Source: Curvibacter sp. PD_MW3
Lineage (GTDB): Bacteria > Pseudomonadota > Gammaproteobacteria > Burkholderiales > Burkholderiaceae_C
Direction of reading: 5' to 3'
NCBI GenBank assembly: GCA_002633085.1
Contig: NSIV01000001.1
Coordinates: forward strand, 496,001 to 560,000
DNA: 64,000 nucleotides
The notes below the pieces were generated by a model. It made no database searches, was not told the DNA's origin, and was given only the letters and a program-made list of their open reading frames with translations. Position numbers and translations under genes: made by a program. Numbering within the stretch: position 1 is the first letter of the stretch; every line of letters starts with the position of its first letter. Shown in pieces: positions 26,215-31,251 of this stretch.

Positions 26215-26666
26215 GCGGCCTCCTTCAACTGCGCCAGCAGATGGTCGAACTTGTTGGGGCTCACACGCGCATAAGGCTTGTCGTTGATGCTCATGGACGG
26301 CGCCGTGGCGCACAGGCCCAGGCAATAGACCGGCTCCAGCGTCACGTCGGCGTTCTTGGCCCTTTGGCTGGCGTGTTCCCACAGCGCATCGGAGCCGCAG
26401 GCCTGGCAGGCCTCGGCGCGGCAGACCTGCACCACGGCGCCCTTGGCCGGTTCGGAACGGAAGTGGTGGTAGTAGGTGATGACGCCATGCACCTCGGCAC
26501 GCGAGAGGTTCAACGCCTCGGCAATGTCGGCCACGGCGTGGGCCGGCACATGGCCCAGCTCGTCCTGGATGGCGTGGAGGATGGGGAGCAGCGCCCCCGG
26601 CATGTGGCGCTTGTCGTTCAGCACCCGGCGGATGGTGTGCTGGGCCAGGCCCGTGGTGGTTGTCAT
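26211..26666 (-). CDS. fdsG: NAD-dependent formate dehydrogenase gamma subunit
   Basis: The 151-aa NuoE-like [2Fe-2S] protein has cluster ligands CRAEACQACG and, later, CLGLCATAPS. It starts an operon of five genes (G, B, A, fdhD, D) that makes the soluble NAD-linked formate dehydrogenase complex. The region upstream (26667-26842) contains two tandem operator-like repeats and then the end of the low-G+C island, so the insertion lies within 180 bases of this promoter. Confidence 0.94.
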   Translation of the reverse strand: MTTTTGLAQHTIRRVLNDKRHMPGALLPILHAIQDELGHVPAHAVADIAEALNLSRAEVHGVITYYHHFRSEPAKGAVVQVCRAEACQACGSDALWEHASQRAKNADVTLEPVYCLGLCATAPSMSINDKPYARVSPNKFDHLLAQLKEAA

Positions 26667-26787
26667 GTCTGCCTCGCTGGTTCAGCGACGCGCTCAAGGC
26701 GAACGCGTCATGCGAGGCGGAGTTTCAGTCTCGGATCAAGGTTGGGTCAAATTGATTCGAGACATAGGTTGATTCGGTTTGCGAATG

Positions 26788-26828
26788 TATGCAATGGGGT
26801 GCATAGATGGTGTGCAAGGACGTGCATA
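26788..26828. promoter_or_regulatory. Two tandem inverted-repeat sites upstream of the fds operon
   Basis: TATGCA-N6-TGCATA (26788-26805) and TGTGCA-N6-TGCATA (26811-26828), with centres 23 bases apart, about two helical turns. They lie 122-162 bases upstream of the fdsG ATG. Size, symmetry and tandem placement fit LysR-type regulator binding. The fds operon of Cupriavidus is under a LysR-type regulator, and a possible counterpart is at 44384-45328. The rest of 26667-26842 shows nothing else clear. Confidence 0.5.
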
Positions 26829-26842
26829 GAAAGCAGTTAGAT

Positions 26843-27523
26843 CTACGCAATCTTGCGAGGAAGCTCATTCTCAACAAGCTCGAGCAAGTGCGGCTGAAGG
26901 TTCCCACCGATCTTCACTACACCTGACATAGAGAAAGCAACCTGTCCTCTTTCCCTCCTATACACGACCTCATACAGGGCGTAGTCGACGGAATATTCCA
27001 TGCCGCGAAGAAACTCCATGCGACCCAAGTCCAGACCTTCTTTACCGGCAACTTCAATCCGTGCGATCGCCTTTTGCGATGTAACAGATCCGACTCCCTT
27101 AAAGCTAACCAAGCGACATTCATCGACACTTCGAAGAAGTGCTGCATACACCGACTGCGTGAAAACAACGACTTCAGCGTAAAAGCCAAGCCCAACAGCC
27201 GCCTCCAATGCATCTAATAAGTCTTTCACCGAGCGAGGTGGATCAACCACACGAAGCCATGACACACCGAACTTTGAGAACAGCGCGAACTCACAGAGAC
27301 TGACTGTGGAGACGGACTGCCTTACTGAATTTCCATCCAAATCGAGAGTCGTGATAACGATGTTAGATCGCCAGGCAAAACGGAAAGCGTGTGCTCCAGA
27401 AGCCGACACACCTGGCACAAATCCTCTCGCCTTATCCGCCGTGAAAACATCCGCCCGCAATCGCTTCAATAGGGAATCCAAGCCATTGGGAAGTCCAATC
27501 CTGTACCACTTGTAGCGAGTCAT
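26843..27523 (-). CDS. Unknown protein, third gene of the low-G+C operon
   Basis: The 226-aa product was not recognised. It appears soluble with alternating beta strands and helices, no membrane segment and no obvious catalytic motif. Notable patches are MTRYKWYRIGLPNGLD at the start and an aromatic/basic stretch YALYEVVYRRERGQVAF near the end. Its ATG overlaps the stop of the preceding gene (ATGA), so it is translated together with it. Lower G+C and A/T-ending codons separate it from the fds genes. Most likely an accessory or regulatory subunit of the nuclease operon. Confidence 0.8.
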   Translation of the reverse strand: MTRYKWYRIGLPNGLDSLLKRLRADVFTADKARGFVPGVSASGAHAFRFAWRSNIVITTLDLDGNSVRQSVSTVSLCEFALFSKFGVSWLRVVDPPRSVKDLLDALEAAVGLGFYAEVVVFTQSVYAALLRSVDECRLVSFKGVGSVTSQKAIARIEVAGKEGLDLGRMEFLRGMEYSVDYALYEVVYRRERGQVAFSMSGVVKIGGNLQPHLLELVENELPRKIA

Positions 27524-28632
27524 TTCGTTCCCCCAGTCTTCGGGGTGGGTGTTATTGAGCTCTTATTCAGCCTTTCGACCAACTCCTTGGCTTTGTCTTC
27601 TATAGCCCGCGAGACGGTATCGATCTCGCTCTTAGTTGGAGGTCTACGTTTTTTGCTCAGTTTCCCGTTGTCTTCGAGTTCATAGACGCCGCGCAGCAAA
27701 TACGAAAAACCCGTGCATTCCTTTGGATCGGAGAACATCACCTCGACATCAAAAGCGAACCCCTTACCAAGCTGCTCAGTTGCGATCCATTCAACGCGAG
27801 AAATGTAGTAGTTCTGAACCTGAATAAGGTCACTCAGCAATTTTGACTGAGTGACTCCATTACCTTTCATCAGAACTTTTTCAACATGGGTATCAACCTC
27901 AGCCGCCTCTTCATCGGAGTCATCAGCAGCCGGGTTCGGTCGAGGCTTGTAAACGTAGACATCAGTGACATCACGTCTTACGTACCCTGGCAACTCACTC
28001 ATCAGGTCATAAAAGAACTGACTTCTCGCGCTATTCGATTTAATTCCTGAGAGATTGACACTAACCCGCTCAATCGGCTTGCTGGTCTCTTTCTCCAACT
28101 GCCTTGCAAAGGCATCGCGAATCTGATCGACATAGTCACTATGCGTGCTTCGCAGCACATAGTCATTGCCCACCTTAATCAGCTCCAGGTGCCCATCCTT
28201 CTGCTGCAGTTGACTAAACTCCGACCGCTTGTAGTCGATAGTCGAGTAATGCACGTTCATGATGATGCTACCGCCCTCTTCTGAGACGTGGACAACATCA
28301 CCCTCGCTCTGCAACTCCTCTCGGATTTTGTGAATTGCCCGAGTTACATCGTCTTTCTTAATGTCACCCCTGAGGTCTACTGAGGTGATTCTTTCGCGAC
28401 GCGAAATCACCCCCAAGCGAAGCGATATCTCTTTGTGATCAAGATAGTCATGTGTCAGTCGGCTAAAGAAGCGAGAAAGCTCCTCCCGCGGAGTGCGCTT
28501 GGAACAAACAATGTTTCTTCTGGAAAACAGCCCCTGGACCGTGTCGTTATCAACTCGAGACTGGTTAAGTGCATCGTAGATGTTCTTATCCGATGCATAG
28601 TAAAGCGATGGACCTTGTTGTGGTTTCTTCAC
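27520..28632 (-). CDS. Unknown protein, second gene of the low-G+C operon
   Basis: The 370-aa product was not recognised. It seems to have three parts. An N-terminal half (about 1-165) holds a helix pattern DDVTRAIHKIREELQ followed by a beta hairpin, reminiscent of a winged helix. A middle domain (about 175-240) is followed by an acidic linker (DDSDEEAAEVD, about 238-250). A C-terminal alpha/beta part (about 255-370) ends in a helical tail. Start is GTG at 28632, overlapping the nuclease stop by four bases (GTGA). Its stop overlaps the next gene. It may be the DNA-sensing or gating partner of the nuclease; that is inference. Confidence 0.8.
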   Translation of the reverse strand: MKKPQQGPSLYYASDKNIYDALNQSRVDNDTVQGLFSRRNIVCSKRTPREELSRFFSRLTHDYLDHKEISLRLGVISRRERITSVDLRGDIKKDDVTRAIHKIREELQSEGDVVHVSEEGGSIIMNVHYSTIDYKRSEFSQLQQKDGHLELIKVGNDYVLRSTHSDYVDQIRDAFARQLEKETSKPIERVSVNLSGIKSNSARSQFFYDLMSELPGYVRRDVTDVYVYKPRPNPAADDSDEEAAEVDTHVEKVLMKGNGVTQSKLLSDLIQVQNYYISRVEWIATEQLGKGFAFDVEVMFSDPKECTGFSYLLRGVYELEDNGKLSKKRRPPTKSEIDTVSRAIEDKAKELVERLNKSSITPTPKTGGTK

Positions 28633-29633
28633 TTTGGAGCCCTCCAGCCGATGTATGGCGCCGAATATGTAGTCGCGACAGCCGTGACAGGCTTTACGTC
28701 AATCGCCTCCAGAACTTCTATCCGCTTGGGGTCAAAACCCCATGCTCGAGCGTATTTTTCTGTAGCCGCCTTGAAATTGCTGAGGAAGTTGGGGTGCGGA
28801 TCAACATGAACAATTCGAACTCGAATGAACTCCTCATGAACAAGCATTTGATATCTTGAGAGGCTATCCAAAAAGTATTCAAATTCTTCAGGCGTTTCAC
28901 CTCTGCGGTTGTAGTAGATCAAGTATCCAGATTGGATCTTCTCGCGTGCCGGGTACTTGATCATGAAGTACGGAGCGGTCAGCGCCTCGATCGTTGCCGC
29001 CTGACCCCAAACATCGCCCTGCCTCCGCCACATGACCAGATCAGGGTAATAGAAAGAGTAGTTATCGGGAAGAAGCTTCTCGTATTGCAACCGAATGATG
29101 TCGTTCGCAATGGTGAACAGCCGGGAAACGTCAGCAGGTCCGAGGAAATGGATGTAAATGTGCGGGGCGATTGGAATGCTGGAAAGATCAGTGGCCTCGA
29201 CCGCCTTCTGGAAGTTACCTTCATACCCTTTGTCATGGTTATGGACAAACAGGAGCCCGCGGATGTCGAACTGATCTTCAGTTGTTGCCGAATAGATTTG
29301 CCGCCACTGTGCAGAGCCCTTGGCGCACTCAACACTCATAGCTAGCGACTCAATAGCTGCTCGAAGCTTCACTGTTCCGATTGAGTCTTTTCCGTAGCTT
29401 TTGAGATCGGTATGTAGATAAACTCGCCTTCCAAGGTACGGATCCTCATAGTAGAAGATCACATCGGCTGGGTGAGTGTCTTTCTGCTTAGGCTTGTTGC
29501 CGCCTGTGAGGTGCTCTGGATTGTTGCATTTGAAGTTCTCGTCTCTTCTCGGGTGAGTTTTCCAGAGAAAGAACTTGAAGATGTCCTCGGACAACCTATT
29601 TGCGATCTCACCAATATTGACTGTCTCAGCCAC
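28629..29633 (-). CDS. Predicted PD-(D/E)xK-type nuclease, first gene of the low-G+C operon
   Basis: The 334-aa product has an N-terminal signature of the restriction-endonuclease fold. E16 lies on the first helix (RLSEDIFKFFLW), D57 in PADVIFYY and D76-L77-K78 in YLHTDLKSYGK, the E...D...DxK order of a metal-dependent phosphodiesterase. The remaining 200 residues are aromatic-rich and not recognised (IYIHFLGPADVSRLF near 160). Start is GTG with GGGAGG about 6 bases upstream. G+C of sampled lines across the operon is about 47-55%, against about 68% in fdsA. Likely a phage- or plasmid-restricting module; homology was not established. Confidence 0.72.
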   Translation of the reverse strand: MAETVNIGEIANRLSEDIFKFFLWKTHPRRDENFKCNNPEHLTGGNKPKQKDTHPADVIFYYEDPYLGRRVYLHTDLKSYGKDSIGTVKLRAAIESLAMSVECAKGSAQWRQIYSATTEDQFDIRGLLFVHNHDKGYEGNFQKAVEATDLSSIPIAPHIYIHFLGPADVSRLFTIANDIIRLQYEKLLPDNYSFYYPDLVMWRRQGDVWGQAATIEALTAPYFMIKYPAREKIQSGYLIYYNRRGETPEEFEYFLDSLSRYQMLVHEEFIRVRIVHVDPHPNFLSNFKAATEKYARAWGFDPKRIEVLEAIDVKPVTAVATTYSAPYIGWRAPK

Positions 29634-29661
29634 GCGCGCCTCCCTCTGTATTCTTCGCAGA

Positions 29662-29667
29662 ATATTA
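29662..29667 (-). promoter_or_regulatory. Possible -10 element for the nuclease operon
   Basis: TAATAT on the minus strand, ending 29 bases before the GTG start. It lies in A+T-rich DNA with a poor -35 (TTCGAC, 20-base spacing). A weak call based on composition and position. Confidence 0.3.
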
Positions 29668-29895
29668 CCGGAGGATTGCAGGTTTCAGTCGAAAATTTGA
29701 TGCAGCTACATAGCGACGTCTATCCGCCTGACCAAACTCCAAATTACCCCTCACCGGAGAGCTTTACCCCCAGGGCCACGACCATGCGGAGATGTTCTAC
29801 AACAGCGTAAACATCAGAGCCCACTTCGGCCGCGCGCCTGAGCGCAGCCCCCTGTAGTATCCTGCCCCTATCCTTTCCTGCATCAAGATGCAGCA

Positions 29896-30009
29896 ATGCC
29901 ACGCATCGTCATCTGCGGCGCCGCGGGTCGTGACCTCCACAACTTCAACACGGTCTATTGCAACGATGCGGCCGTGCGCGTGGTGACCTTCACGTTCCCC
30001 TTTTCATGA
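29896..30009 (+). pseudogene. Truncated start of a cyclic-2,3-diphosphoglycerate-synthetase-like GTPase gene
   Basis: A 37-codon frame begins MPRIVICGAAGRDLHNFNTV, the characteristic N-terminus (nucleotide-binding loop plus GRDxHNFN) of a bacterial GTPase family named after archaeal cyclic 2,3-diphosphoglycerate synthetase. Such proteins usually exceed 400 aa. Here the match ends after about 32 residues (VVTFTF) and a stop follows at once. The rest of the gene is not in the window, so this is a fragment left by a deletion or rearrangement. Confidence 0.65.
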
Positions 30010-30122
30010 TGACGCTTCCGCTCCCCGGCCCTCTCAGCATCGACTGCGGCGCCTCCAACTCCGCCATGGCCTCGGTCCTGGCATACGGCGGCCAGCATTA
30101 ACAGCCCCAAGGCAAGCCCACC

Positions 30123-30188
30123 ATGGCGCAAGAACAAGCCCTGCTGCTCAAAGAACGACTGAACGCCAAGGCGCTGAACCGCAACTGA
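30123..30188 (+). pseudogene. Fragment of an AlkC-like DNA alkylation repair gene
   Basis: A 21-codon frame starts MAQEQALLLKERLNAKAL and stops. It closely matches the N-terminus of the intact gene at 35180 (MAQDK...LLKELLNAKAL) in both protein and DNA. It is therefore the stub of a second copy or a related gene, cut off after the first 18 conserved residues. The stop lies 8 bases before the convergent rsgA stop. The stretch 29668-30195 holds only this stub and the one at 29896; no other gene is seen in it. Confidence 0.6.
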
Positions 30189-30195
30189 CCGACGC

Positions 30196-31251
30196 TCAGT
30201 CCCTCTGCTTCTTGTAGTTGTGCAGAAAGCGGCCAAACGCCCGGTCCTTCTTGCGCCGTTCCTGCTGCGACAGGTCGTGAAACTCTGATTCCTTGCGCAG
30301 CTTCTCGTAGTTGCGCAGGTGCGCCTCGCTGAGTTCCTGGCGCTCGATGGCGGCACGCACCGCGCAACCCGGCTCGCTGCCATGGGTGCAGTCGGGGTAG
30401 CGGCACTGGGCGGCCAGGGCGTGGATGTCGGCAAAGGTGTCGGTGATGCCTTCACCGGCGCCCAGCAGGCCCAGCTCGCGCATGCCCGGCATGTCGATGA
30501 GCATGGCGCCGTGGGGGAGCACGATGAGCTGGCGCCGGGTGGTGGTGTGGCGCCCCTCGCCCGTGTGACTGACTTCCCCCGTGGCCAGCGCATCGCCACC
30601 GAGCAGGCGGTTGATGAGCGTGGTCTTGCCCACGCCGGATGAGCCGAGCAGGCAGCAGGTCTTGCCGGGGGCCAGGTGATGGCGTACTTCATCCACGCCG
30701 GTACCGGTGACGTTGCTGAGGCAGACAATGGGGGCGTCCACACCGATGCCGTGGATGCGCTCGATCAGGCCCTGCAACTCTGGCGGGCTGACCAGATCGG
30801 TCTTGGTGAGCAGCACCACGGGGGCTATGCCGCCGTCGCGCACCATCACCAGATAGCGCTCCAGTCGCGGGAGGTTGAAGTCGAAGTGGCAAGACTGCAC
30901 GATGAAGGCCACGTCGATGTTGGCCGCGATCATCTGGAACTCCACGTCGCGACCGGCGGCCTTGCGGCGCAGGAAGGTGCGGCGCGGCAGCACGTGGTGG
31001 ATGCTGGCTTGCGTGCCACCGTCGCGGACCTGCACGCATACCCAGTCGCCCACGCAGGGCAGCTCGGCAGACGATTCAGCGAGGTGGAGGAACTTGCCGG
31101 TCAGCTCAGCCGGGATCTCGCCGTCTTCGCCACGCACCAGATAACGACCACGGTCCACCGCGGTGACGCGGGCCGGGGCTAGGTCCGTGCCACAAAGTGC
31201 CGCGGCCTGCTGCGCCAACTCGCTGTCCAAGCCCAGTTCTTCAAGCTTCAT
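30196..31251 (-). CDS. rsgA: Ribosome small-subunit-dependent GTPase RsgA
   Basis: The 351-aa circularly permuted GTPase helps late 30S subunit maturation. An N-terminal OB-fold (about 30-100) is followed by the permuted G motifs: G4 LLTKTDL, then the P-loop GSSGVGKTTLINRLLG near 210, then DMPGMRELG. The C-terminal zinc knuckle is CRYPDCTHGSEPGC near 290. The start at 31251 is chosen because the 20-residue in-frame extension lacks family similarity. Confidence 0.93.
   Translation of the reverse strand: MKLEELGLDSELAQQAAALCGTDLAPARVTAVDRGRYLVRGEDGEIPAELTGKFLHLAESSAELPCVGDWVCVQVRDGGTQASIHHVLPRRTFLRRKAAGRDVEFQMIAANIDVAFIVQSCHFDFNLPRLERYLVMVRDGGIAPVVLLTKTDLVSPPELQGLIERIHGIGVDAPIVCLSNVTGTGVDEVRHHLAPGKTCCLLGSSGVGKTTLINRLLGGDALATGEVSHTGEGRHTTTRRQLIVLPHGAMLIDMPGMRELGLLGAGEGITDTFADIHALAAQCRYPDCTHGSEPGCAVRAAIERQELSEAHLRNYEKLRKESEFHDLSQQERRKKDRAFGRFLHNYKKQRD

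Follow-up and report, generated by a model that had tools for sequence, protein, structure and literature searches.

Protection of E. coli against phage P1 has been reported for a system of three genes at the P2 hotspot (PMC9122126). This trio, cloned by Rousset et al., is very likely the system modelled as Hp1, Hp2 and Hp3 (3HP, or Rst_3HP), because the hotspot, the number of genes, their names and DefenseFinder's references agree (PMC9090908). The Rst_3HP systems found by DefenseFinder lie in their majority on prophages (PMC9090908), and members of the 3HP family in Salmonella are also mostly prophage-borne (PMC11305592). In this report, we analyse a chromosomal operon of Curvibacter sp. PD_MW3 contained in a stretch of 64,000 nucleotides (NSIV01000001.1, positions 496,001 to 560,000), which we call the window and whose own numbering is used throughout. 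On its profile matches, the operon can be assigned securely to the known 3HP anti-phage family, as a divergent member. Further, we propose, with a probability of about one half, that its second and third proteins, Hp2 and Hp3, would clamp phage DNA as a pair and position or switch on the first, the putative nuclease Hp1.

Proteins from outside this family enter into the comparison as well. RdgC, a homodimer, reduces RecA strand exchange; RexA has the RdgC fold, is likewise a homodimer, and forms part of the RexA-RexB exclusion system (PMC11077077). In CENP-N, a five-helix PYRIN-like domain is followed by a second (CLN) domain that begins at residue 78 (PMC5777823).

Results

Three open reading frames (ORFs) are read on the minus strand of the window: Hp1 (28629..29633, 334 amino acids), Hp2 (27520..28632, 370 amino acids) and Hp3 (26843..27523, 226 amino acids). 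Direct reading shows a start-stop overlap of 4 bases at each junction on that strand, GTGA between Hp1 and Hp2 (28629..28632) and ATGA between Hp2 and Hp3 (27520..27523). Against the PADLOC profiles for Hp1 (PDLC03004), Hp2 (PDLC03005) and Hp3, the three proteins give expectation values (E) of 8e-68, 3e-43 and 1.1e-6. All three thus match one consecutive set of models, and the genes are adjacent, on one strand, in the order Hp1-Hp2-Hp3. The same trio is found between the portal and replication genes of an E. coli record with P2-like genes, where its proteins fill all three PADLOC models end to end, and a Vibrio phage record labels its trio Rst_3HP__Hp1, 2 and 3.

An earlier sequence-only reading of this DNA had given the same gene coordinates, lengths and overlaps, which are right, and had seen in them an operon for defence headed by a putative nuclease, a view that our results support. 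It had also called the system undescribed, with both partner proteins unidentified and without a demonstrated link to any named system, and had given a match to an already described system as one of the results that would undo its claim. Such a match is what we found; the PADLOC hits of all three proteins, the phage annotation and the report of protection against P1 (PMC9122126) contradict the claim of novelty.

The three 3HP genes are co-inherited in the loci that we surveyed. These number 134, namely the best 80 of 114 relatives in a genome collection and all 54 in a viral collection. Hp2 is present in 129 of them and Hp3 in 125, and in every locus long enough to hold Hp3 (125/125) it stands next to Hp2, in the order Hp1-Hp2-Hp3. 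In the nine others, the contig or stored stretch stops before a whole Hp3 could fit; at one of these (L063), the contig ends shortly after an Hp1 that is itself cut to 150 amino acids. For 110 paired sets, the correlations between the distance matrices of the three proteins are 0.955, 0.873 and 0.844, and no maximum under permutation reaches 0.08. The joint travel of the genes, part of a check proposed in the sequence-only reading, is borne out. Its description of the 226-amino-acid protein as an accessory does not fit a gene that is present wherever the locus reaches it and whose product has a predicted fold of the same kind as that of Hp2.

A protein search with Hp3 returned only 2 relatives among 816 candidates, and the Hp3 family was therefore gathered through gene neighbourhood. 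An iterated profile started from the window Hp3 and run over 6,719 sequences recovered all 125 third genes and otherwise only the window copy and its piece in L001. The alignments, which include the window and leave out truncated and identical sequences, hold 121 Hp1, 118 Hp2 and 116 Hp3 rows. Mean column identity is 34% for Hp1, the best conserved of the three, 25% for Hp2 and 24% for Hp3. Within the window host's own family, Hp1 occurs in 6 of 200 genomes, the window genome included; the other five loci (L136 and L138-L141), which are outside the 125, show Hp1 and Hp2 and end before a whole Hp3. Two single loci are of separate interest. In a Pseudomonas locus (L005), Hp1 and Hp3 are accompanied by a partial Hp2 ORF only, which may reflect decay of this copy or a fault in the assembly. 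A 3HP-like trio lies at one end of the 13-kilobase genome of the filamentous Pseudomonas phage 54-4 (OR621021; L144:485-3252), an unusual vehicle for a defence system.

From its conserved motif residues and its homology, Hp1 is predicted to be a metal-dependent PD-(D/E)xK nuclease. D57 (codon at 29463..29465, minus strand), D76 and K78 occur in every one of the 121 aligned sequences, and L77, between the last two in the D-x-K motif (29400..29408, minus strand), is kept in 120 of them; the D...(D/E)xK signature is thus conserved across the family. The conserved N-terminal acidic residue is E3 (29625..29627, minus strand), a candidate motif-I glutamate that is present in 120 of 121 rows, the remaining one being gapped at this position. 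The invariance (121/121) of four further residues, C36, H54, C103 and H133, points to a possible structural metal site. The catalytic set named in the sequence-only reading consisted of E16, D57, D76 and K78; the last three stand, and E16 falls, its column holding a glutamate in only 8 of 121 sequences while E3 is kept instead. As a separate observation made by eye, C36, H54 and C103 have apparent counterparts in the two GapS4a sequences above the model's cut-off (see below).

Confident models of Hp2 (predicted local distance difference test score, 92.3) and Hp3 are both predicted to adopt the fold of RdgC, RexA and Iml3-Chl4 (CENP-L/CENP-N), which in other systems serves to embrace DNA; a clamp fold for these two 3HP proteins is newly proposed here. 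The two-domain clamp fold extends over the whole domain length in both models. In Hp2, the secondary structure of the model has four predicted helices in residues 1-78 (28399..28632, minus strand), preceding the putative RdgC/CENP-N-like clamp domain of residues 79-354 (27571..28398, minus strand), and the structural matches listed for this protein begin at about residue 79. For Hp3, an RdgC/Iml3(CENP-L)-like clamp domain is predicted across the full length. Foldseek places Iml3 first and a chain N third for the Hp3 model, and inner-kinetochore chains N first and Iml3 eighth for the Hp2 model, a mild preference for one or the other kinetochore subunit; these chains are named by letter, except 4it3 (Iml3) and 6c0w (CENP-N). 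RdgC turns up in a second structural comparison (VIA) and in the viral library. None of the VIA rows listed for Hp2 lies wholly within residues 1-78, an absence that is uninformative. The likeness of Hp2 and Hp3 to RdgC rests on the predicted models, because sequence profiles show no similarity: hhalign against the RdgC profile gives probabilities of 0.4% (Hp2) and 1.9% (Hp3), and the Pfam family PF04381 (RdgC) matches neither protein at E up to 1.

Other assignments for these proteins were considered and set aside. Hp2 as a CARF sensor (PADLOC CARF3, E 0.011) is ruled out, its model matching RdgC and CENP-N. Hp3 as a 2H RNA 2',3'-cyclic phosphodiesterase (NCBIfam, E 0.087) is rejected, as its model is RdgC-like and the family lacks conserved histidines, with near-invariance at G34 and G64 only. 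Weak Pfam matches in a few members, among the families listed (for example, best 25 of 32 or best 25 of 49), were taken as chance. Residues 29-60 of Hp2, approximately (window 28453-28548), form a helix-extension-helix that is SAP-like by eye and looks to be the most similar part of Hp2 and GapS4b; no SAP match for Hp2 is present among the Pfam families listed (best 25 of 49).

Relatives of Hp1 and Hp2 were also tested with the NCBIfam models of GapS4a and GapS4b, at E up to 0.01. The GapS4a model matches 46 of 75 Hp1 relatives (best E 8e-18), and the GapS4b model matches 16 of 92 Hp2 relatives (best E 2.4e-9). The comparison with GAPS4 drawn in the sequence-only reading was thus apt. The window's own Hp1 (E 3.8e-10 for GapS4a) and Hp2 stay under the cut-offs of these models, at 39.5 bits (cut-off 270) and 17 bits (cut-off 300), which leaves the locus outside GAPS4 as the models delimit it. 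Two GapS4a loci above the cut-off (L156 and L157) were found among 196 genomes of a Vibrio genome's genus, and two weaker matches in that genus (L158 and L159) are 3HP trios; 398 genomes of the phylum gave no GapS4a at E 1e-8, in a search where the controls also gave no match. When profiles were compared by hhalign with L156 and L157, Hp1 paired with GapS4a (E 1.2e-7, probability 94%) and Hp2 with GapS4b (E 2.2e-5, probability 77%), the latter in a collinear alignment of 331 columns, and the crossed comparisons, which served as a control, had probabilities below 1%. By this measure, putative homologues of the a and b subunits stand side by side in the window, and Hp1 seems distantly homologous to GapS4a, as does Hp2 to GapS4b.

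By eye, we take the cassette to have as its neighbours in the chromosome rsgA and, at the opposite end, the fds formate dehydrogenase genes, and no prophage genes were seen in the ORFs flanking the window copy. The G+C content of the operon is about 50%, and that of its surroundings about 65%. In detail, it is 0.50, 0.49 and 0.525 in the three 1-kilobase steps over the 3HP genes, against 0.589-0.710 in the 61 remaining steps of the window; the clear drop in G+C that had been pointed out from the letters is real. Four regions of the same genus (L189, L190, L191 and L192) were fetched and aligned with blastn. In L190, the flanks align closely on both sides (86-91%), and the shared flanks stop at window 26807 and 29842, the edges of a block-replaced low-G+C cassette between rsgA and the fds genes (26808..29841). 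At the same site, L190:1493-4165 (G788) is a low-G+C block in which a YfbU-domain gene (E 7e-16) followed by an ApeA homologue (PADLOC, E 5.6e-92) replaces 3HP. ApeA is a published defence gene, and this one relative therefore identifies the rsgA-fds interval as a landing site for defence genes. In L192, both sides align at a lower 71-81% and enclose other genes, and in L189 and L191 alignment is confined to the rsgA side and beyond. The YfbU-domain gene and ApeA of L190 may themselves make up a two-gene ApeA variant. No match was obtained in a promoter/terminator scan of 29600-30250 or in an Rfam scan of 26600-30250, and no exact direct or inverted 10-base repeats occur between 26781-26900 and 29601-29900.

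Discussion

3HP has been in the defence catalogues since 2022, its genes described as being without clear domains. The predicted folds offer a concrete mechanism for it, a heterodimeric DNA clamp feeding a nuclease. According to this proposal, Hp2 and Hp3 would pair as an RdgC-type clamp around phage DNA, the clamp would bring in or activate the effector, Hp1, and this predicted metal-dependent nuclease would cut phage DNA rather than host DNA. In our view, what is recognised is more likely a DNA state (ends, topology, or a replication or recombination intermediate) than a sequence mark, because the operon is without a methyltransferase.

Several results weigh against the clamp-plus-nuclease reading. 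A common fold is no proof of function, and DNA binding by RexA is not strictly required for exclusion (PMC11077077). The best Foldseek rows have template-modelling scores (query) of only 0.15-0.45 and root-mean-square deviations of 8.6-18.6, and RdgC is absent from the 50 best rows of the Protein Data Bank (PDB) for Hp2 and for Hp3. For Hp2, an unrelated-looking YwmB row (2fpn) comes third in Foldseek, and two single-domain proteins of other families, KA1 (8.7) and phosphopentomutase (8.5), lie within about 2 Z units of RdgC. The hhalign probabilities of Hp2 and Hp3 do not exceed 1.9% whether they are compared with RdgC or with each other, and Hp2 is not basic overall (isoelectric point 6.7). 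The Pfam library used gave no nuclease family for Hp1, whose relatives are labelled with the Pfam entry PF26115; PDB sequence searches, made with Hp1 and Hp2 singly and with the profiles of all three proteins, yielded no convincing match. Neither our own Hp1 and Hp2 profiles (E up to 10) nor the PADLOC models of these proteins (E up to 0.01) find GapS4a or GapS4b, and the homology to GAPS4 is therefore distant. Finally, the published protection concerns one phage of eight, in one host, and a distant relative of the window copy.

The main rival to the clamp-plus-nuclease reading is abortive action on host DNA. Here, the Hp2-Hp3 clamp would sense an infection-specific DNA state and free Hp1 to act on host and phage DNA alike, with the cell dying before phage release. 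We hold this to be possible, if on the unlikely side. None of the three genes is a modification gene that would mark self DNA, and altruistic defence is common in prophages. A family that is mostly carried by prophages (PMC9090908; for Salmonella, PMC11305592) would be in keeping with such a strategy. Against it, section 10 of the report of the three-gene system states no abortive outcome (PMC9122126).

A second alternative makes the clamp the effector. Hp2 and Hp3 would then act in the manner of RdgC, blocking phage recombination, circularisation or replication restart, and Hp1 would only trim or resolve the trapped DNA. P1, the phage against which protection is reported, can circularise by recombination. 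RdgC lowers strand exchange by RecA, and the RexA-RexB exclusion system includes a protein with this fold, RexA (PMC11077077). No nuclease is known in that system. The conservation of Hp1 speaks against so minor a part for this protein: D57, D76 and K78 are kept in all 121 sequences, and it is Hp1 that is best conserved (34% mean column identity, versus 25% and 24%). This alternative is, in our view, decidedly doubtful.

It seems very improbable that the operon has no defence role and is a prophage-maintenance or DNA-metabolism cassette left in the chromosome. Relatives do reside in P2-like, Vibrio and filamentous phage genomes, but protection of E. coli against P1 has been published for a three-gene relative at the P2 hotspot (PMC9122126), no prophage genes were seen by eye around the window copy, and an ApeA homologue occupies the same site in a genome of the same genus. 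Next to no weight falls on the version of the sequence-only reading, a new system of two parts, nuclease and sensor, in which the third gene would be optional. Although the closest two-gene system, GAPS4, shows no such third gene at two loci, 3HP has it in 125 of 125 loci long enough, and both PADLOC and phage annotation already include the set. The clamp-plus-nuclease reading remains the one that we prefer.

Comparison with known systems

The described 3HP system and the window operon agree in their three genes, in gene order and roughly in gene size, and all three profile models match. The window set shares about 38% identity in Hp1 and about 29% in Hp2 with the E. coli set. It is set apart by its location in the chromosome, where no neighbouring prophage genes were seen, and by an Hp3 that is barely recognisable (PADLOC, E 1e-6).

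The two true GAPS4 loci, L156 and L157, have two genes only. After gapS4b, the next ORF of at least 100 amino acids is one of 133 amino acids at L156, and at L157 it lies on the opposite strand. No Hp3-profile match was found in ORFs of at least 80 amino acids at either locus, a weak test given that Hp1 and Hp2 profiles of the same kind missed GapS4a and GapS4b. We read 3HP and GAPS4 as three-gene and two-gene forms of one theme. The predicted folds point to a single superfamily that would contain both forms, and to a fold common with the RexA exclusion protein.

RdgC is a homodimer, whereas Hp2 and Hp3 are two different proteins, and it has no sequence-profile similarity to either; to our knowledge, it has no nuclease partner. 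The window host has a chromosomal rdgC of its own (G000:C8:501112-501990), and the putative clamp subunits of 3HP thus coexist with the housekeeping ring protein. Lambda RexA is also a homodimer, and its partner, RexB, is a membrane protein; RexA-RexB is not known to include a nuclease, whereas one is predicted in 3HP.

The remaining comparison is with the eukaryotic pair Iml3-Chl4, or CENP-L-CENP-N, which acts at centromeres and has no detected sequence similarity to Hp2 or Hp3. Among the open-access papers listed on these subjects, we saw none in which 3HP or GAPS4 is connected with RdgC or with CENP-L/N. Both CENP-N and the Hp2 model have helices followed by a clamp domain, those of Hp2 ending at residue 73 with the putative clamp beginning at 79, and the modelled helices number four in Hp2 versus five in CENP-N. 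This domain parallel is suggestive only. One could go further and regard the clamp subunits of 3HP as corresponding in bacteria to CENP-N and CENP-L, with a helical N-terminus and a clamp in one and a clamp alone in the other, such that the kinetochore heterodimer would descend from a phage and anti-phage clamp lineage including RdgC, RexA, GapS4b and Hp2-Hp3. We consider such a descent unlikely. The comparison nevertheless makes an evolutionary question testable, namely whether the heterodimer on the centromeric DNA of eukaryotes shares its ancestry with a clamp of phage defence.

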